Virus record (IMG/VR): IMGVR_UViG_3300025122_000008
Coordinates: 34,426-98,425 of that record
Source of the DNA: a virus
Length of the DNA stretch: 64,000 nucleotides
Reading direction: 5' to 3' (one strand)
The position numbers and the translations under genes are program-made. Within the stretch, counting starts at the first letter, position 1. Each line of letters opens with the position of its first letter. Positions 49,784-61,857 of the stretch are shown piece by piece. The notes under the pieces are model-generated. The model was given only the letters and a program-made list of their open reading frames with translations. It made no database searches and was not told the DNA's origin.

Positions 49784-50971
49784 TTGTATTTTCAAACGTT
49801 GGACAGCAAGGGCAAGTGTGTTGGATACTATGCTGATAATAAATTAATCTTTGACGAGGTACCACATAATGCGGCAAAAACATGGTGCTATTCTCCGTCC
49901 CTACAAAACCGTGATATAGAGTATGCTCGTATCTACGCTAGTGGTGCCACGCTTACGGAAGCATGCCCAGAGAGTTTTAGGCCAGAATGGGATGAAGTGG
50001 TGAAAAAGGCTGGAGCGTACTCCAAATCTTTTAATATAGCCAAACTAAATTTGAACGACGTGTGTATCTATGACCTGGTGCCAGAGTATTTTCTTTATAA
50101 ATTTTGTAAAGCAAAGGACCAGATAACTAAACACGTTATTGAGAACAACATAAAACCAAAAAATTATAATTTTATGGCCAGTCTTATACAAATGCTGTTC
50201 GACATTGGTTCACATCAAATGAATATTGATATAGAGCCGATTATGACAAAACTTGTATCAGTAAAGGGTAGAAATTTTATAAAAAAATTACAAGAAATTA
50301 ATTGGATTTGTCATTATAATCCTTTTGGCACCGTAACCGGGCGACTGACAACGATGCCCAATACATTTCCCATATTGACCCTCCCCAAAGAGTTTAGAAA
50401 TTGTCTTCATCCAACCAATGACTGGTTTTTAGAATTGGACTACAATGCGGCCGAGGTTCGTACTCTCTTGGGGCTCTCCGGGGTGGAACAACCAAGCGGC
50501 GACATTCACGAGTGGAATATTGAACATATTTATAATAATAAAATTTCACGACCGGCGGCCAAACAAAAGATTTTTGAGTGGCTATACTCCGCGCGCCCAA
50601 ATAAGCGCGCTGAGCAGTACTATAATAAAAAGCTGGTTAAAGAAAAATACTGGGACGGTTATAATGTAACTACCGAATTTGATCGGTGTATAAAAAATGT
50701 TGACGATCATCATGCTTTGAACTATATTGTTCAAAGTACAACCAGCGACTTAGTGCTTTCTAGAGCAATTAAAATTCATAATTTTTTGAAGAATAGAGGC
50801 AGTCGAATTGCTTTTATGCTGCATGATTCTATTATAGTAGATTTAAAACATGATGAAAGACACATGATACCAGAATTGATGAGTATGTTCGGTGACACTG
50901 ACTTTGGGGAGTATAAAGTTAACGTAGCATTGGGCAAAAGTTTTGGAAATATAAAAAAATTGAATTTATGA
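49784..50971 (+). CDS. Family A DNA polymerase domain, short form
   Basis: This 395-residue protein is read from a TTG behind AGGGGG; no in-frame ATG exists until far inside conserved sequence. The palm and fingers are present: FGTVTGRLTT, motif A with D219 in LELDYNAAEVR, and motif B with exact R256-x3-K260-x3-F264-x3-Y268 spacing. Motif C is H347-D348-S349, where Pol I has His-Asp-Glu. No 3'-5' exonuclease lies in this ORF, and the 5'-nuclease is a separate gene at 57086. It probably copies phage DNA, replacing the family B gp43 of T4, unless another polymerase lies outside the window. The N-terminal 140 residues are not recognised. Confidence 0.85.
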   Translation: MYFQTLDSKGKCVGYYADNKLIFDEVPHNAAKTWCYSPSLQNRDIEYARIYASGATLTEACPESFRPEWDEVVKKAGAYSKSFNIAKLNLNDVCIYDLVPEYFLYKFCKAKDQITKHVIENNIKPKNYNFMASLIQMLFDIGSHQMNIDIEPIMTKLVSVKGRNFIKKLQEINWICHYNPFGTVTGRLTTMPNTFPILTLPKEFRNCLHPTNDWFLELDYNAAEVRTLLGLSGVEQPSGDIHEWNIEHIYNNKISRPAAKQKIFEWLYSARPNKRAEQYYNKKLVKEKYWDGYNVTTEFDRCIKNVDDHHALNYIVQSTTSDLVLSRAIKIHNFLKNRGSRIAFMLHDSIIVDLKHDERHMIPELMSMFGDTDFGEYKVNVALGKSFGNIKKLNL

Positions 50972-51882: not shown

Positions 51883-52677
51883 ATGGCTATTAATTTAGAT
51901 AAAATGCGAGAGAAGCTCGCAACTGTTCGTGGTGAAAACCGCGATAAAGACAACTTTTGGCGCCCAGATGATGGCGATCAGGACATTCGGATTGTTCCGA
52001 CTGCTGACGGCGATCCCTTTAAGGAGAAGTGGTTCCATTATAACCTGGGAAATACCCCCGGATTTTTATGTCCTAAGCGTAATTATGGGGAAGAATGCCC
52101 CGTGTGCGAATTCGCCTCTCAACTGTGGCGCGACGGCGTAGAAAACAATGACGATGGCAGTAAGAAGGTGGCAAAGAGCCTTTTTGTACGTCCTCGTTTC
52201 TTCTCGCCGGTTATGGTTCGCGGAGAAGAGGACAGGGGAGTAAGGATCTGGGGCTATGGTAAGATGGCATATGAAAACCTTCTTAGCCTCGTTTTGAATC
52301 CGGAATATGGTGACATTACTGACGCCGAAACAGGAACGGACTTAACCCTTACTTATGGCAAACCTCCCGGCGCCTCGTTCCCGCAGACGAAGCTTGTTCC
52401 TCGTCGTCGAAGCTCGGAACTTTGTGAAGATATGACGCCAGAACGTTGTGTGGAATTGCTAGAAAGTATTCCGGATTTTGATGGTTTGTTTGAGCGAAAG
52501 ACGACCGAAGAAGTCGCAACGTTGCTTGATACCTTCATGAATTCGGACCTAATTGATGTGGAGGCTGTTTCCTCTGAGACTGAAAAGTTTGGTACTAAGA
52601 CTACCACAACTGACACCACAGAGGCCACTGCTCCAAATGCTGTCGACGCGGCATTTGCGGAATTGGGCGCGCTGTAG
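51883..52677 (+). CDS. Single-stranded DNA-binding protein (gp32-like)
   Basis: This 264-residue protein coats single-stranded DNA during replication and recombination, with UvsX, helicase and polymerase as partners. The T4 gp32 zinc site is intact: H52 in KWFHYN, C63 in FLCPKR, C72 and C75 in ECPVC. The N-terminus MAINLDKMREKLATV is the cooperativity segment. A core with many aromatic and basic residues follows, and the C-terminal 40 residues are acidic, Ser/Thr-rich (TTTTDTTEATAPN) and end hydrophobic, as in SSB tails that dock partners. T4 gp32 is 301 residues. A strong AAGGAG site precedes the ATG. Confidence 0.93.
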   Translation: MAINLDKMREKLATVRGENRDKDNFWRPDDGDQDIRIVPTADGDPFKEKWFHYNLGNTPGFLCPKRNYGEECPVCEFASQLWRDGVENNDDGSKKVAKSLFVRPRFFSPVMVRGEEDRGVRIWGYGKMAYENLLSLVLNPEYGDITDAETGTDLTLTYGKPPGASFPQTKLVPRRRSSELCEDMTPERCVELLESIPDFDGLFERKTTEEVATLLDTFMNSDLIDVEAVSSETEKFGTKTTTTDTTEATAPNAVDAAFAELGAL

Positions 52678-52744
52678 CGTAGTTTTCCAATCCCCACAGG
52701 GAGGCACAGGGTTATCAGGTGTCTCAAAAAATAAAAAATATAGG

Positions 52745-52773
52745 TTGACATACGCGCCCTTAACGGGTATGAT
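52745..52773 (+). promoter_or_regulatory. Near-consensus sigma70 promoter
   Basis: TTGACA (52745-52750), a 17-base spacer and TATGAT (52768-52773) precede the GHKL ATPase gene at 52803, giving a leader of about 25 bases. It should be read by unmodified host RNA polymerase, implying early expression of the downstream genes. Confidence 0.8.
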
Positions 52774-52802: not shown

Positions 52803-54404
52803 ATGAGTGATAAATCTATGGACACCACCCCCGATGTAGAAAAATTGTTTGATATGATTTTTCCCTCCCTCGGATACACCTCTGAGTATGCTATAGGAGA
52901 TGTTTTTGACAACTCAGCGGATGCTGGCGCTGCCGAGATAGTATTGACTATCGTAGAGGCCGCTGAGACCGCCCAGATCGATAGCCTGGTGTTTGCAGAC
53001 AACGGGAAGGGCATGGGCCAGGAGATCCTCCAACAAGCATGCCGTTTCGCTGGTACGGCCGAGCACTCGCCTGAGGATTTAGGCAAGTATGGAATGGGCG
53101 GAACAGCAGCTTCATTTTTTCTAGCCAAAACGAAGTGCATTCTTACTAAGACAACAGATGGAGAGCTGCTCGGAGCGCAGGTAGATATCAATAACCGCAG
53201 CGCTCTCACTTTTCAGAATATTGCAGAGTTTATTAATATTAGCGAAGACTGTGAAAAGATATTTTATAAGTTTTTGCCGGGCGGGGAAGACCAAGAATCC
53301 GGTACGGTGATTTATCTGACGAATATCCGTAACGAGCGGCTAGAGGTTGAGACCGCCGTCCTTATGAAGAATCGTCTTGTAAAATTTTTGAGCGAAAGCT
53401 TTCGGCCCCTTATCGATGCGGGTATGAAGATTATCATTGAAGTACTTAAGAAAGGGGGGAAAGGCCTTAAGACGTCAGATGTCGTTGGAGGGTACGATCC
53501 CCTTTATCGTGATCATCCAGACTGCGTAGTCGAAAGCGGGTCGGAAGAAGTTGAATTCAAAGACTCTTCCATCGCTTTTAATTATTCTCTTTTGAAGCCT
53601 CGGGAATGTTCCCGGGTTGATAGAGAACGCGGCCGCCGTAATAAAGGGGGCGATGAGAGCAAGGCCATGGTGCTGGGGACTGGAGGTTATTTAATTCGCG
53701 GGCGCCGTCAAATTGTTGGCGCCTCCACTCTTTCGGGATTGTGGGGTCGAGATCCTCAGCTGTGCAACGCACGATTTGAGGTGATTTTTACTAGCGAACT
53801 AGATGATCATTTTGGTGCGACTGCACAAAAAAATAAAACCAACCTAAGTGCCGAGTTGAAAGCGGTCCTGAGACCAGTTGTCCAGAAGCTTAAGCGTCGT
53901 ACGCGATTGCGCTGGAGCACTCCTTCCAAGAAGAACACTCAGAAGGTTGCAGCTGTTGAAGCTCGCGAAATCAAAAAGATTGTAGATCCTAAAAACGCTG
54001 GGAGCATAGGAATTCCGAAGAGAAAACCTACTCCAAATCCTGCTGGAGGCCGCGGGCCCGATAAGGGCAAACGCTCGGCTAAGAAAAACTCCGGCACTGG
54101 CACCAACAAGCCCTATAAGAAAATACTTACGCGCCATGTTAGTGCTCCGATGCCGGGTTCTCACCCCTGGTGGTATGACTTCGATAATAATGGAGAAATA
54201 GTTATTTGTATTAATGACGCACATCCGTATATTAAAGAATTTTATACACGAGCCAGTGATGAAACTCAAACGGCGCTGCTAAGAAACTGGTTCGCTGGTT
54301 CGCTGGCAGAGCATAAATTTTATGAAACTGAGACAGCTGATCATCTTAGCTCGTATAAGAATGAATATGCTAACAGTTTGATGGCCATTTGCGTGGCCAA
54401 GTAA
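52803..54404 (+). CDS. GHKL-family ATPase, MORC/Hsp90-like
   Basis: This 533-residue protein starts at the ATG at 52803; an upstream in-frame TTG is less likely. The Bergerat ATP site is complete: D36-N37 in VFDNSADAGA, D66-N-G-K-G-M-G, and G94-x-x-G-x-GG in LGKYGMGG. Order and spacing resemble MORC and Hsp90/MutL ATPases, which clamp shut on ATP binding. A central part (about 150-350) looks like a transducer, a Lys/Pro/Gly-rich linker lies at about 405-440, and a C-terminal domain has GSHPWWYDFDNNGEI. T4-type topoisomerase gp39 is another GHKL protein, but I see no topoisomerase signature. It has its own sigma70 promoter. Substrate and partner are unknown. Confidence 0.75.
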   Translation: MSDKSMDTTPDVEKLFDMIFPSLGYTSEYAIGDVFDNSADAGAAEIVLTIVEAAETAQIDSLVFADNGKGMGQEILQQACRFAGTAEHSPEDLGKYGMGGTAASFFLAKTKCILTKTTDGELLGAQVDINNRSALTFQNIAEFINISEDCEKIFYKFLPGGEDQESGTVIYLTNIRNERLEVETAVLMKNRLVKFLSESFRPLIDAGMKIIIEVLKKGGKGLKTSDVVGGYDPLYRDHPDCVVESGSEEVEFKDSSIAFNYSLLKPRECSRVDRERGRRNKGGDESKAMVLGTGGYLIRGRRQIVGASTLSGLWGRDPQLCNARFEVIFTSELDDHFGATAQKNKTNLSAELKAVLRPVVQKLKRRTRLRWSTPSKKNTQKVAAVEAREIKKIVDPKNAGSIGIPKRKPTPNPAGGRGPDKGKRSAKKNSGTGTNKPYKKILTRHVSAPMPGSHPWWYDFDNNGEIVICINDAHPYIKEFYTRASDETQTALLRNWFAGSLAEHKFYETETADHLSSYKNEYANSLMAICVAK

Positions 54405-54414
54405 GGAGAAGAAC

Positions 54415-54540
54415 GTGGAATTATTACCCGCATTTGCATTTTTTCTGGGGGCCGGCTATCTTGTTTATCGCTTGGCGCGCCTGGACGCTCAGATTGAACA
54501 CTTGAAGAAAAGAATAGAGGATCTTAATGGCTCGGAGTAA
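54415..54540 (+). CDS. Tiny membrane protein upstream of uvsX
   Basis: This 41-residue ORF starts at a GTG behind AAGGAGAAGAAC, a good ribosome site. A single hydrophobic helix (about residues 3-19, LLPAFAFFLGAGYLVY) is followed by a short charged coiled coil (RLDAQIEHLKKRIEDL). It overlaps the start of the UvsX gene by 14 bases, so the strong ribosome site and overlap suggest translational coupling to UvsX. It may be a host-membrane effector or mainly a leader peptide. The family is not recognised. Confidence 0.55.
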   Translation: MELLPAFAFFLGAGYLVYRLARLDAQIEHLKKRIEDLNGSE

Positions 54541-55642
54541 ATCAACCGCCGGAAAGGTTTCCATAGGAGACCTTCGAACTCTTATTAACAAAACCTCTGG
54601 CATGGAGGTGGCCTATAATCTTAATGATGAAAACCCCACCGAAGTAAAGGAGTGGATTCCTACCGGGTCACGATGGCTTAATAGCATTATTCGTCGAGGA
54701 CAATTGGCCGGAATTCCAATTGGAAAAATCTCAGAAATTGCTGGCCTAGAGGCAACAGGCAAATCATTTATGGCAGCACAAATAGCCGGGAATGCGCAGA
54801 AGATGGGCATGGCCGTGGTGTATATGGATGCAGAGTCGGCTATCGACCCCTCGTTCTTAGAACGCGCAGGCTGTGATCTAGATGAACTTATCTATGTTCA
54901 GGTCCAATCTGTTGAGCAAGTACTTGAAACTATTGAGAGTATTCTTAATAGCGGAGCGGAGAGAACCTTGTTTATCTGGGATTCACTCGCCCTTACACCG
55001 TCCATTTCTGATGTAGAGGGCGATTTCAACCCTCAATCATCCATGGCAGTGAAGGCTCGCATTCTTGCGAAAGGAATGTCAAAGCTTACTATCCCCATAG
55101 CGAACAGTCAATCTAGCTTTCTTGTATTAAACCAGCTTAAAACAAATATTACTCGGTTTCCAGCCGAGGCTATGACAACTCCGTATGTCACTCCGGGCGG
55201 GAAGGCAATGATTTATGCCTATTCACTCAGAATCTGGCTCACGGGTCGCAAGGCTAAGGCAAGTTTTGTACTTGACGACAACGGTTTCCGTATCGGATCC
55301 GAGGTTAAGGTGAAGCTGGAGAAGTCTCGATTCGGAACGCAGGGACGTAATTGTGCCTTTAAGATTCTATGGGGTGAAGAGGTTGGAATTCAGGATGAAG
55401 AGTCTTGGTTCGAAGCCATCAAGGGCTCCGAAAGGATTAAGAGGGCAGGCGCTTGGTATTCTCTCGTATATGAAGATGGCACTGAAGAAAAGTTCATGGG
55501 CTCTCATTGGGTAGGTAAACTTCAAGATGAAAAGTTCCGAAATCGCGTATTAGAGATCATGGATGAAGAAATTATCATGAAGTTTGATAAGCGCATCGGA
55601 GAAGCGGAAGAATTTTATACGCTGGATGGAGAAGAAGAATAA
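54527..55642 (+). CDS. uvsX: UvsX/RecA-type recombinase
   Basis: This 371-residue protein forms filaments on single-stranded DNA and drives strand exchange for recombination-dependent replication, together with gp32-like SSB and the Mre11-Rad50 fusion. Walker A is G73-L-E-A-T-G-K-S80, the Walker B-type strand is TLFIWDSLAL, and FLVLNQLKTN holds the L2-proximal Gln. It has T4 UvsX-like length (391) rather than the bacterial RecA C-terminal domain. The start lies inside the preceding tiny ORF. After its stop a late-type motif begins a separate unit, so uvsX closes this early block. Confidence 0.93.
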   Translation: MARSKSTAGKVSIGDLRTLINKTSGMEVAYNLNDENPTEVKEWIPTGSRWLNSIIRRGQLAGIPIGKISEIAGLEATGKSFMAAQIAGNAQKMGMAVVYMDAESAIDPSFLERAGCDLDELIYVQVQSVEQVLETIESILNSGAERTLFIWDSLALTPSISDVEGDFNPQSSMAVKARILAKGMSKLTIPIANSQSSFLVLNQLKTNITRFPAEAMTTPYVTPGGKAMIYAYSLRIWLTGRKAKASFVLDDNGFRIGSEVKVKLEKSRFGTQGRNCAFKILWGEEVGIQDEESWFEAIKGSERIKRAGAWYSLVYEDGTEEKFMGSHWVGKLQDEKFRNRVLEIMDEEIIMKFDKRIGEAEEFYTLDGEEE

Positions 55643-56645: not shown

Positions 56646-56674
56646 TTGACACCGAAGCTCCTATAGGTTATACT
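56646..56674 (+). promoter_or_regulatory. Near-consensus sigma70 promoter
   Basis: TTGACA (56646-56651), a 17-base spacer and TATACT (56669-56674) lie upstream of the deaminase gene. The -10 element sits in the loop and 3' edge of the terminator hairpin 56657-56683. It should drive the deaminase-exonuclease-helicase-RNR-IscA-IscU block early. Confidence 0.8.
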
Positions 56675-56702: not shown

Positions 56703-57089
56703 TTGAAGAAAACAAAACGCTATATATCTCTCGCACAAAAAGTTGCAGAACAATCAGACTATGGAAAATTTAGACATGGCGCTGTTCTTGTTAGGGGAAG
56801 CTCAGTAAGAAACATGGCGTGTAATAAACACCGTCATTGTCACTTTGGAAAAAGATTTCGTGAAGTTAACACAGGAAATGCTACATTGCATGCAGAGCTT
56901 GGTGTCATTCTTGGAATGGATCGCTCAGTTACGCAAGGGGCTACTGTCTACGCCGCACGAGTAAACAAGGAGGGTCATCCTCGTATGAGCAGACCGTGCC
57001 CTATGTGCGAAAATGCGATGCGACACGTGGGAATAAAGAGAGTTGTGTATACTGATCGCAATGGAAGAATAGAAAGTATGAGACTATGA
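56703..57089 (+). CDS. Deoxycytidylate/cytidine deaminase-like zinc enzyme
   Basis: This 128-residue protein is read from a TTG behind TTGGAG. The zinc-dependent deaminase motifs are both present: H63-A-E65 in TLHAELGV and P98-C-x-x-C102 in RPCPMCENAM. In T4 a dCMP deaminase makes dUMP for thymidylate synthesis; here it would work with the class II RNR downstream. It is shorter than T4 Cd (193 residues), so substrate (dCMP, cytidine or another base) is uncertain. An extra Cys/His stretch (CNKHRHCHFGK, 40-50) precedes the active site. It ends with a 4-base overlap with the next gene. Confidence 0.75.
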   Translation: MKKTKRYISLAQKVAEQSDYGKFRHGAVLVRGSSVRNMACNKHRHCHFGKRFREVNTGNATLHAELGVILGMDRSVTQGATVYAARVNKEGHPRMSRPCPMCENAMRHVGIKRVVYTDRNGRIESMRL

Positions 57090-59445: not shown

Positions 59446-61857
59446 ATGTACACTGAAGGACAGGCAAAAGAGGCCAGTTTAAAATATTTTAACGATGATG
59501 AACTAGCAACAAACGTTTTTTTGACAAAATATTGTCTCAAAGATGGAAAAGGCAATTTTGTAGAAAAAACCCCCGATGATATGCACGGCCGCCTGGCTAA
59601 AGAATTTGCTCGTATTGAAAAAAAGTTTAAAGGAAGCCTTCTATCTGAGAAAGAAATATATGATTATTTAAAAGATTTTAAATATATTGTACCTCAAGGC
59701 TCTCCCATGATGGGGATAGGAAATGACTATGTTAATGTATCTCTATCTAACTGCGTGGTTATCGATAATCCAGAAGACAACATTTCGTCTATTATAGATA
59801 CCGGCAAAGACCTCGCTAATCTTTTTAAGCGGCGTTGCGGTGTTGGCCTTGATATCAGTGGCCTACGTCCGACTGGCGGCATTGTTAATAATTCGGCTCG
59901 CACTACTACTGGGGCTTGGAGTTTCGCTGATCTCTACTCTTACATCTGCCGGATGATTGGACAGAATGGCCGCCGCGGAGCGTTGATGATTTCGATGGAC
60001 GTGCGTCATCCCGACATTGAGCAGTTTGTGACGATGAAACACGACCTAACTAAAGTAACGGGGGCGAACGTATCCGTAAAGATAAGCGATAGCTTCATGG
60101 AGGCTGTTGAGAGCAACGATACGTTTACTTTACAGTTCCCCGTCGATGCTGAACACCCTGAATACACATCCGAGATTGATGCTAGTGCTCTCTGGAATAC
60201 CATTATCGAGTCGGCCACCAAAACCGCAGAGCCCGGGCTCCTAATGTGGGACAACATCACTAAGAATTTACCGGCTCATTCATATGCAGCCTTCGAGACC
60301 AAGACCACCAATCCTTGCGGGGAGATCCCCCTCTCAGCGTATGACTCGTGCAGGCTCATCTCTTTGAATTTGAAAAGTCTCGTGAAAAATTCTTTTGAAA
60401 AAAATGCAGATTTTGACTTTAATAAGCTGAAAGAAGTTTCAGCGGTAGGAATGCGCTTATCTGATGACTTGGTAGAACTGGAGTTAGAAAAGCTACAAAA
60501 TATACGCAAGTGTGCGGACACCGATGATGAAAAAAGTCTTTGGACTAAACTTTATGGCGCTGCATTCAACGGCCGCCGAACTGGTCTAGGTACTCACGGC
60601 TTGGCCGATGCGATTGCTTGCCTTAATCTGGCATATGATAGTCCCGAAGCCATTGTAATCATTGAAAAAATCTATCGCACTTTACGGGACGCAGCCTACG
60701 AAGAGAGCGTCTACCTAGCCCAAGAGCGTGGCCACTTTCCGGCCTTTGACTGGAGTGTTGAGGAAAACAACGAGTTTATTCAACGGTTACCGACATTCCT
60801 CAAGGAGTTGATTGCCAAGCATGGGCGCCGCAATATATCAATTCTTACAAATGCACCAACTGGCTCTGTTTCTATTATGTCACAGACTTCATCCGGCCTT
60901 GAGCCGGTGTTTAGAAATTCTTATGTTAGACGTCGCAAACTTTCCCATGATGAGCAGGATCTTGACGAAGACCATATAGATGATATGGGAGACAGGTGGG
61001 TAGAATATGAAGTGCTTCACCACAATGTTCAAGCGTGGTTTGAGCAGCACCCTCTCAAAACTCTAGGACCTCTACCTGATTTTTTTGTAGAGTCCGACAG
61101 CATTGATTGGACGCGCCGAGTCGCCGTTCAGGCGGCTATTCAACAATATATAGACCACAGCATTAGTTCAACAATTAATCTTCCAAAGGGTACCTCTTCT
61201 CAGTTGGTGGGGAATCTGTATATGGAAGGCTGGCGCCGTGGGCTCAAGGGGATCACAGTTTATGTAGATGGATCACGTTCGGGTGTGCTTCTTGTCGGAA
61301 AAGACCTTGGATTTCCGCAACACAAAGCACCCAAGCGCCCCACAGAGTTACCCTGTAACATTCATCACACCACGATTCAGGGAGAGAGGTGGATTATTTT
61401 AGTTGGCCTTATGGATGAAAAGCCCTATGAAATTATGGGGGGTCTTTCAAATTTGATTGAGATTCCAACCAAAGATACCGAAGGCATATTGGTTAAGCAC
61501 TCTCGAAAGTCAATGAATTCTATATATGATTTAAAAATTGGGAGGAACGGCGACAGCATCGTTGTAAAAAATTTAGTTAAAGTTTTTGATAATCCCAACC
61601 ATTCTGCTTTCACTAGAATGATTTCGCTCGGGCTGCGCCATGGAGCGAATATTCAGTATGTTGTGGAACAGTTACAGAAGGATCGAGATAGCGATATGTT
61701 TAGTTTTGCTCGTTGTATTGCTCGTATTTTAAAGAACTATATTCCAGATGGTCAAACGGCAACAGAAAAGACTTGCGGCGAGTGTGGTACCGAAGGATTG
61801 GTTTACGTTGAGGGCTGTATCACTTGTAATAATTGTGGCTTTGCTAGATGCGGATAG
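59446..61857 (+). CDS. nrdJ: Class II (adenosylcobalamin-dependent) ribonucleotide reductase
   Basis: This 803-residue enzyme reduces ribonucleotides to deoxyribonucleotides. The active site is clear: C103 in LSNCVVID (first redox Cys), N289-P-C291-G-E293 (radical Cys and general base), then NAPTGSVSIMSQTSSGLEP and the substrate segment NLPKGTSS. No small subunit lies nearby, consistent with the B12-dependent class. About residues 630-750 resemble the TSCPD/NrdJ C-terminal domain, and the end holds CGECGTEG...CITCNNCG, zinc-ribbon-like Cys pairs that may deliver electrons. It starts five bases after the helicase. T4 uses class I NrdAB, so this is a different solution requiring host cobalamin. 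Confidence 0.9.
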   Translation: MYTEGQAKEASLKYFNDDELATNVFLTKYCLKDGKGNFVEKTPDDMHGRLAKEFARIEKKFKGSLLSEKEIYDYLKDFKYIVPQGSPMMGIGNDYVNVSLSNCVVIDNPEDNISSIIDTGKDLANLFKRRCGVGLDISGLRPTGGIVNNSARTTTGAWSFADLYSYICRMIGQNGRRGALMISMDVRHPDIEQFVTMKHDLTKVTGANVSVKISDSFMEAVESNDTFTLQFPVDAEHPEYTSEIDASALWNTIIESATKTAEPGLLMWDNITKNLPAHSYAAFETKTTNPCGEIPLSAYDSCRLISLNLKSLVKNSFEKNADFDFNKLKEVSAVGMRLSDDLVELELEKLQNIRKCADTDDEKSLWTKLYGAAFNGRRTGLGTHGLADAIACLNLAYDSPEAIVIIEKIYRTLRDAAYEESVYLAQERGHFPAFDWSVEENNEFIQRLPTFLKELIAKHGRRNISILTNAPTGSVSIMSQTSSGLEPVFRNSYVRRRKLSHDEQDLDEDHIDDMGDRWVEYEVLHHNVQAWFEQHPLKTLGPLPDFFVESDSIDWTRRVAVQAAIQQYIDHSISSTINLPKGTSSQLVGNLYMEGWRRGLKGITVYVDGSRSGVLLVGKDLGFPQHKAPKRPTELPCNIHHTTIQGERWIILVGLMDEKPYEIMGGLSNLIEIPTKDTEGILVKHSRKSMNSIYDLKIGRNGDSIVVKNLVKVFDNPNHSAFTRMISLGLRHGANIQYVVEQLQKDRDSDMFSFARCIARILKNYIPDGQTATEKTCGECGTEGLVYVEGCITCNNCGFARCG

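Follow-up and report, generated by a model that had tools for sequence, protein, structure and literature searches.

What is a stand-alone relative of the MORC ATPases doing in a phage genome, lodged between two genes of the recombination machinery? The 64,000-nucleotide stretch of DNA analysed here (hereinafter the window) comes from positions 34426-98425 of a virus record 98,425 bases long. This record encodes a myovirus-type terminase, portal, major head protein and tail sheath. It also codes for T4-type replication proteins, namely a gp32-like single-strand DNA-binding protein (SSB), UvsX, a DnaB-type helicase and an exonuclease, while its DNA polymerase is of the A-family. The polymerase gene (window 49784-50971) specifies just 395 aa comprising the polymerase domain without an exonuclease domain, a form conserved in relatives. 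The window UvsX shows at most about 32% identity to the best record of the cultured-phage collection and the ribonucleotide reductase (window 59446-61857) at most about 43%, and these identities place the virus, as judged by sequence, in a deep phage lineage without an isolate. Likewise, the carriers of the GHKL gene under study are uncultivated phages, mostly of marine origin. A first-pass annotation of the window described a MORC-like GHKL ATPase adjoined by SSB and UvsX, and profile matches identify both of these as its flanking genes (Table 1).

Table 1. Features of the gp32-uvsX region, in window coordinates
Feature	Position	Strand	Description
gp32-like single-strand DNA-binding protein	51883..52677	+	left border of the gp32-uvsX slot; profile matches
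Stem-loop CCCCAC-AGG-GAGGCAC-AGGGTTATCAG-GTGTCTC-A	52692..52726	+	marks the gp32-uvsX cassette slot
sigma70-type promoter TTGACA-17-TATGAT	52745..52773	+	11/12 consensus match; conservation
GHKL-S5 ATPase gene, MORC/MzaB-like, 533 aa	52803..54404	+	ATG 52803, TAA 54404; profiles, fold
Bergerat ATP site	52899..53102	+	acid D33; D36-N37 (motif N); D66-x-G-x-G (G1); G94-x-x-G97-x-G99 (G2)
S5/transducer domain	53427..53918	+	MORC-like motif G294-G-Y-L-I-R-G-R-R-Q-I304, lysine finger K343; AlphaFold, VIA-align
Basic, mostly disordered linker	53916..54119	+	residues 372-439, net +14, pI 10.8
C-terminal alpha/beta domain	54120..54401	+	residues 440-533; kind seen in SNF2/DCM/Vsr-operon GHKLs
41-aa predicted small membrane protein	54415..54540	+	GTG start, between GHKL and uvsX
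UvsX/RecA-like recombinase	54527..55642	+	right border of the slot; profile matches

The 533-residue reading frame is present as first annotated, and all three of the ATP-site motifs proposed for it were recovered, namely DNSADAG (residues 36-42), DNGKGMG (66-72) and LGKYGMGG (93-100). Pfam detects a single domain, HATPase_c_3 (E 7.2e-16, residues 25-136), which together with Bergerat motifs N, G1 and G2 places the protein in the GHKL superfamily. Across 21 gp32-linked phage homologues (20 in the gp32-uvsX interval and one just upstream of gp32), D36, N37, D66, G68, G70, M71, G94, G99 and T168 are invariant, as are G294, R299, R302 and the lysine K343 of the S5 domain; position 33 is Asp or Glu in all of them, and G97 is present in 16. 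Because the ATP site, the S5 arginines and the S5 lysine are invariant, G97 excepted, these homologues look like active enzymes. Same-place copies in two related contigs (L002/L003) are 82% identical to the window protein, and the gene is under purifying selection by its codon substitutions, with dN/dS of 0.11 between the window and L002 and 0.22-0.32 within L017-L019; uvsX and gp32, at 0.02-0.09, are under tighter constraint.

Profile searches against the MORC, HSP90, MutL and GyrB families together with structure prediction, the computational checks proposed at the outset, bear out the MORC-like assignment. A family profile compared with solved structures places MORC4, MORC2 and MORC3 on top (E 4e-14 to 4e-12), then SMCHD1 (E 2e-11) and then MutL (2e-8). 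The fold of the first 380 residues is matched best by SMCHD1 (Z 26.3 over 342 residues at 4.1 A), MORC3 (25.9), MORC4 (25.2) and MORC2 (24.3), with the MORC/SMCHD1 matches spanning about 300-342 residues; HSP90 (Z ~22-23) and topoisomerase VI-B (~21) match more weakly. From the profile and fold rankings, MORC/SMCHD1 are therefore the nearest characterised relatives. As in the MORCs, S5 directly follows GHKL and bears the lysine finger. The S5 signature of the MORC family, GhXhhpXXRhl (Iyer et al. 2008, PMC2292703), is fitted at 9 of 11 positions by the window protein and at 10 of 11 by L002, with near-exact versions in the phage relatives L013 (GGYIYRNGRLI) and L329 (GVYIYRNGRLI); expressed as G-Y-x-x-R-x-x-R-x-I, it is nearly kept in the window protein. 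While the GHKL + S5 module is thus common to the window protein and eukaryotic MORC2/3/4 and SMCHD1, the former has neither the CW zinc finger nor the coiled coils of the latter, its C-terminal domain (CTD) is of the kind found in bacterial restriction-modification (RM) operons, and the identity in structural alignments is only about 14-17%.

Other GHKL families were considered and rejected. A type II topoisomerase of the GyrB/gp39 kind with transducer and Toprim partner had been named as the finding that would overturn the assignment; Pfam detects no topoisomerase domain in the protein, in line with the absence of such a motif in the initial annotation, and DNA_gyraseB (PF00204) is absent across the whole 98,425-base record. 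NCBIfam MutL models align to just the ATP site, over ~46-62 residues and with 10-18 bits against cut-offs of at least 180, and no MutL endonuclease motif was spotted by eye in the CTD, again as first described. T4 RIIA is likewise a phage-borne GHKL protein, but it belongs to another family by every profile test: neither the window protein nor its relatives match a RIIA PHROG profile, phrog_612 was not found in the record, and hhalign to T4 RIIA gives a probability of 19% confined to the ATPase domain. In PHROGs as a whole the protein's only match is weak and is to a family without an assigned function.

Downstream of S5, the linker and separate C-terminal domain noted at first pass are well delineated by an AlphaFold model built with 50 homologues (mean pLDDT 80), in which residues 398-436 fall below 50, whereas the CTD (440-533) modelled alone reaches 91.8. 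The linker is basic in five of six proteins compared, including all five phage ones. The CTD groups with those of GHKLs from SNF2-type operons; hhalign gives the L014 member a probability of 99.7%, the CTD profile used already containing this member and its class. A fold comparison with the HtpG CTD gives a weak match (Z 4.0 over 71 residues at 4.3 A), and an N-x-x-H-P motif resembles ELNPDH of HtpG, while hhalign to the HSP90 CTD has a probability of 1.5%; an HSP90-type dimerisation domain is at most hinted at.

The first-pass remark that MORC-type proteins appear in defence contexts holds for the bacterial relatives. A one-genome-per-species scan returned 245 GHKL relatives, and most of the best 80 of these lie in MZA-type operons (GHKL, Z1, PD-(D/E)xK, AIPR, DCM and often Vsr), others being in operons of the form SNF2 helicase-GHKL-~300 aa-DCM/Vsr and a few standing alone. 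Among these best 80 of 245, stand-alone copies rank nearest to the window protein, ahead of the operon subunits; the closest cellular relative is the stand-alone L031 from a Pseudaquidulcibacter (Caulobacteraceae) genome (29%, E 3e-31), and the identity of the bacterial subunits to the window protein is just ~20-29%. MzaB is detected by NCBIfam (NF041932; E 2.4e-10, residues 22-368) at 39.4 bits versus a cut-off of 850, a strict threshold given that the GHKL of a full MZA-type operon (L007) scores only 272 bits, and by PADLOC (E 2.4e-7). The full-length GHKL-S5-CTD layout is common to MzaB of the MZA anti-phage system and the window protein, but the window CTD is of another subtype, and a search of the 98-kb record, covering the MZA partners and DCM/Vsr, found no homologues of Z1, PD-(D/E)xK, AIPR, DCM or Vsr. 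The GHKLs of SNF2-helicase/DCM/Vsr operons (prokaryotic MORC/paraMORC; Iyer et al. 2008) have the same CTD type and the same length as the window protein. While they adjoin SNF2 helicase, DCM and Vsr, the window GHKL stands alone: where other prokaryotic MORCs have RM-system helicases, nucleases and methylases as neighbours, it has gp32 and uvsX.

In the GHKL tree, the window, L002, L116, L263 and L205 cluster together with a support of 95, and this cluster falls among stand-alone viral and bacterial copies, outside the MZA and SNF2 groups. A single clade for all the GHKLs of the gp32-uvsX locus is not rejected (p-AU 0.57), the branches being long. The lone GHKLs L031 and viral L020, L015, L022 and L021 share this broad clade and the stand-alone state, but unlike the window copy they lie outside any gp32-uvsX locus. 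We found no phage-encoded stand-alone MORC in the literature searched or the cultured-phage collection, although the components are already known, with MORC/paraMORC in bacteria and GHKL in RIIA. The sole matches in that collection, the INPHARED entries MT836521, MT835895 and MT836482 (L005-L007), were rejected as phage MORCs: filed as 'Bacteriophage sp.' from human faeces, these gut contigs hold entire MZA/DCM operons of the bacterial type and are perhaps not of phage origin. The distant phage queries L316 and L311 retrieved only these same three entries from the cultured-phage collection.

A GHKL of this type occupies the gp32-uvsX interval in about 20 viral contigs (L002/L003, L013, L017-L019, L116, L205/L317, L263, L307, L310-L316, L318 and L324), and the UvsX proteins of these phages are 54-93% identical to that of the window. 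Two copies are placed differently. That of L329 is a short way upstream of gp32, and that of L016 (7944-10526, contig 3300030107_007542) is away from the slot, flanked by a DnaE/PHP-like gene (by eye) and by an N6/N4 DNA methyltransferase; in this 193-kb contig the slot itself (locus L135) contains other genes. The gp32-uvsX gap ranges from none to 2.6 kb among 80 UvsX relatives, or to 2.8 kb if L013 and L017 are counted. The phages with the most similar UvsX (L111-L113, 93-94%) have no GHKL, while L002 (93%) and L116 (87%) do, and a UvsX tree calls for four or more gains or losses; its sample combines two different, retrieval-biased searches, so that its frequencies are not estimates. The alleles are just 21-37% identical between many phages; thus, L116 and the window share 87% of UvsX and 85% of gp32, but only 30-32% of GHKL. 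At fourfold-degenerate sites the divergence of GHKL between the window and L002 is 0.46 versus 0.59-0.75 for the neighbours, and between L017 and L018/L019 it is 0.04 versus 0.22-0.27. Since this silent-site divergence is below that of the flanking genes, GHKL has moved from phage to phage since the flanks diverged; this, the absence from the closest relatives and the allelic divergence identify it as an exchanged accessory gene.

The slot also receives other cargo, including D12-class N6-adenine DNA methyltransferases of one family (L165 673-1485 and L188 3535-4377, the latter confirmed), an FKBP-like protein (L185, by eye) and many small ORFs. Proteins of 370-430 aa are encoded in L117 (1774-3069), L140 (4790-6019), L145 (857-2086), L151 (5878-6984) and L164 (1883-3022), some with DGQHR/GmrSD_N-like or ParB-like stretches and one faintly AIPR-like. 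The GmrSD_N match in L140 is weak and under the Pfam cut-off, and an AIPR-like identity for the 432-aa protein of L117 is unsupported (7 bits, probability 23%). The 41-aa predicted membrane ORF that overlaps the uvsX start was likewise rejected as a GHKL partner, since it is kept in the GHKL-less relatives L111-L113.

The slot is marked by a stem-loop, with a 7-bp stem (52701-52725 in the window) lying between gp32 and the promoter. Its pattern, AGG-GAGGCNN-loop-NNG[CT]CTC, recurs in L112, L126, L131, L138-L142, L263 and many others. In a first set of loci, 82 of the 84 copies are within the gp32-uvsX gap and two just past the uvsX start, which has probably been called too early in those cases. 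A collection-wide scan adds at least 92 copies in at least 74 further loci (some overlapping contigs of the first set); among the matches listed, nearly all are after gp32 and/or before uvsX, and none is placed elsewhere. Typically one copy precedes each cargo gene, and in L263 copies flank GHKL. Two stem pairs have changed on both sides, and in 16 chosen copies 112 of 112 cells pair, as compared to 91.5% in shuffles and at most 57% when slid. The element comes in two subtypes, with the base of the 5′ flank (A or G) equal to the first loop base in 22 of 22 distinct sites compared. Rfam gives no match, and single-sequence folding of the window copy is not significant (z -1.1 to -1.3); support for the stem-loop comes from covariation and distribution. 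Promoter-stem-loop cassettes (PeSLs) are reported, in work cited in PMC4503421, to mediate shuffling in T4-type phages. As far as that description goes, the slot resembles such cassettes in that a stem-loop and a promoter precede the window GHKL and the slot contents are shuffled, but the stem is followed by no terminator-like U-tract and most copies have no nearby near-consensus promoter.

The host-type sigma70 promoter proposed for the window gene is one of only two intergenic sites among those matching 11/12 of the consensus in the record (eight on the coding strand and one on the other). The second intergenic site (window 56646-56674) precedes a deaminase-like gene (at 56703) by 29 bp. Since both hexamers are identical in L002 despite an altered spacer, the GHKL promoter is more than a chance match. 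Such a near-consensus promoter is conserved in two relatives; the matching place holds TTGACA-17-TATATT in L017/L018 and none in L013 and L116. We infer early expression of GHKL from this promoter.

GHKL-S5 heads dimerise on ATP. Precedence for the action of such proteins comes from MORC2, a CTD-dimerised DNA clamp whose ATPase drives DNA compaction and whose N39A mutation, equivalent to N37 here, abolishes compaction (PMC12216690), and from the GHKL-nuclease defence protein VcSduA, in which disrupted ATP hydrolysis abolishes anti-phage activity (PMC12137116). By homology, we posit that the phage protein is an active, stand-alone MORC-type GHKL-S5 ATPase that would dimerise through its CTD as in MORC2 and close its N-terminal heads on ATP. 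Duplex DNA would then be trapped by the S5 heads together with the basic linker, and so be clamped, bridged or compacted. That it is an ATP-gated DNA clamp we regard as probable. For this accessory cargo of an exchangeable slot, apparently with its own host-type promoter, the likeliest job is conflict: it would act on DNA early in infection, either against host defences or to shut out rival phages or mobile elements; the fuller proposal, of a dimeric ATP-gated clamp with such a conflict role, seems to us evenly poised. Protection of phage DNA, silencing of host DNA and repair were the roles first raised; the exchangeable slot, the presence or absence of the gene in close relatives and its hypervariability lean, at the level of sequence, towards conflict over core repair. 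The defence-operon setting of most bacterial homologues, the methyltransferase cargo of the slot and the methyltransferase beside the L016 copy also count for the clamp-and-conflict proposal.

Weighing against this proposal are the failure to find Z1, PD-(D/E)xK, AIPR, DCM or Vsr in the record, the weakness of the CTD's similarity to the HSP90 dimerisation domain, and the recurrence of the gp32-GHKL-uvsX order in about 20 contigs, including phages whose UvsX is only 54-69% identical. Because of this recurrence in distant phages, a role in recombination or replication keeps some weight: the ATP-gated clamp might act on phage DNA together with gp32 and UvsX, to bridge ends, hold recombination intermediates or organise DNA under replication, in a role like that of the MutL/topoisomerase ATPases. 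Consistent with this, GHKL is inherited vertically in the single clade of L312, L313, L314 and L316 (56-65% identity), and GHKL and UvsX distances are weakly correlated (rho 0.33, Mantel p 0.018). However, close relatives that share the replication genes lack GHKL, the L016 copy is located elsewhere, the gene changes faster than its neighbours and in part independently of them, and unrelated cargo fills the same slot; we see such a recombination accessory as a minority possibility.

A patchy, hypervariable gene is also what an arms race would predict if the protein were a counter-defence decoy, imitating the GHKL component of restriction systems of the MZA or SNF2/MORC type and poisoning those systems through mixed dimers or by occupying their partners. 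Full-length homology to those subunits, CTD included, and the partner genes not being found in the phage record are in keeping with this, but a pure decoy would not need the catalytic apparatus and lysine finger kept in 21 homologues, and the level of identity to the bacterial subunits is low for mixed dimers, making a decoy unlikely. Least probable, and very unlikely, is membrane-level protection against exclusion as by T4 RIIA; although RIIA, too, is a GHKL protein of phages, its C-terminus being variable (PMC7824862), and RIIA models turn up in the viral fold search, the RIIA profile comparisons above speak against it and MORC/SMCHD1 fit better.

Returning to the clamp with a conflict role, we tentatively suggest, as a scenario that we consider somewhat doubtful, that phages acquired a MORC-type clamp from the multi-gene defence operons of bacteria and turned it into a one-gene conflict device, held in a dedicated stem-loop-marked exchange slot flanked by the SSB and recombinase genes, that clamps or compacts incoming or host DNA. 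The mode of action of the eukaryotic MORC ATPases is an open question, and prokaryotic MORCs are known mainly within multi-gene restriction systems. A stand-alone phage MORC of 533 residues offers a minimal system in which to ask if a GHKL-S5 clamp is by itself sufficient to condense or protect DNA, and the phage copy lets one ask whether a defence component was turned to phage use. The gp32-uvsX slot, recognisable by its specific stem-loop, also provides a simple marker for accessory genes in an uncultivated phage group. The window protein is kin to both bacterial anti-phage proteins and human gene-silencing proteins, and may be a phage weapon or shield.
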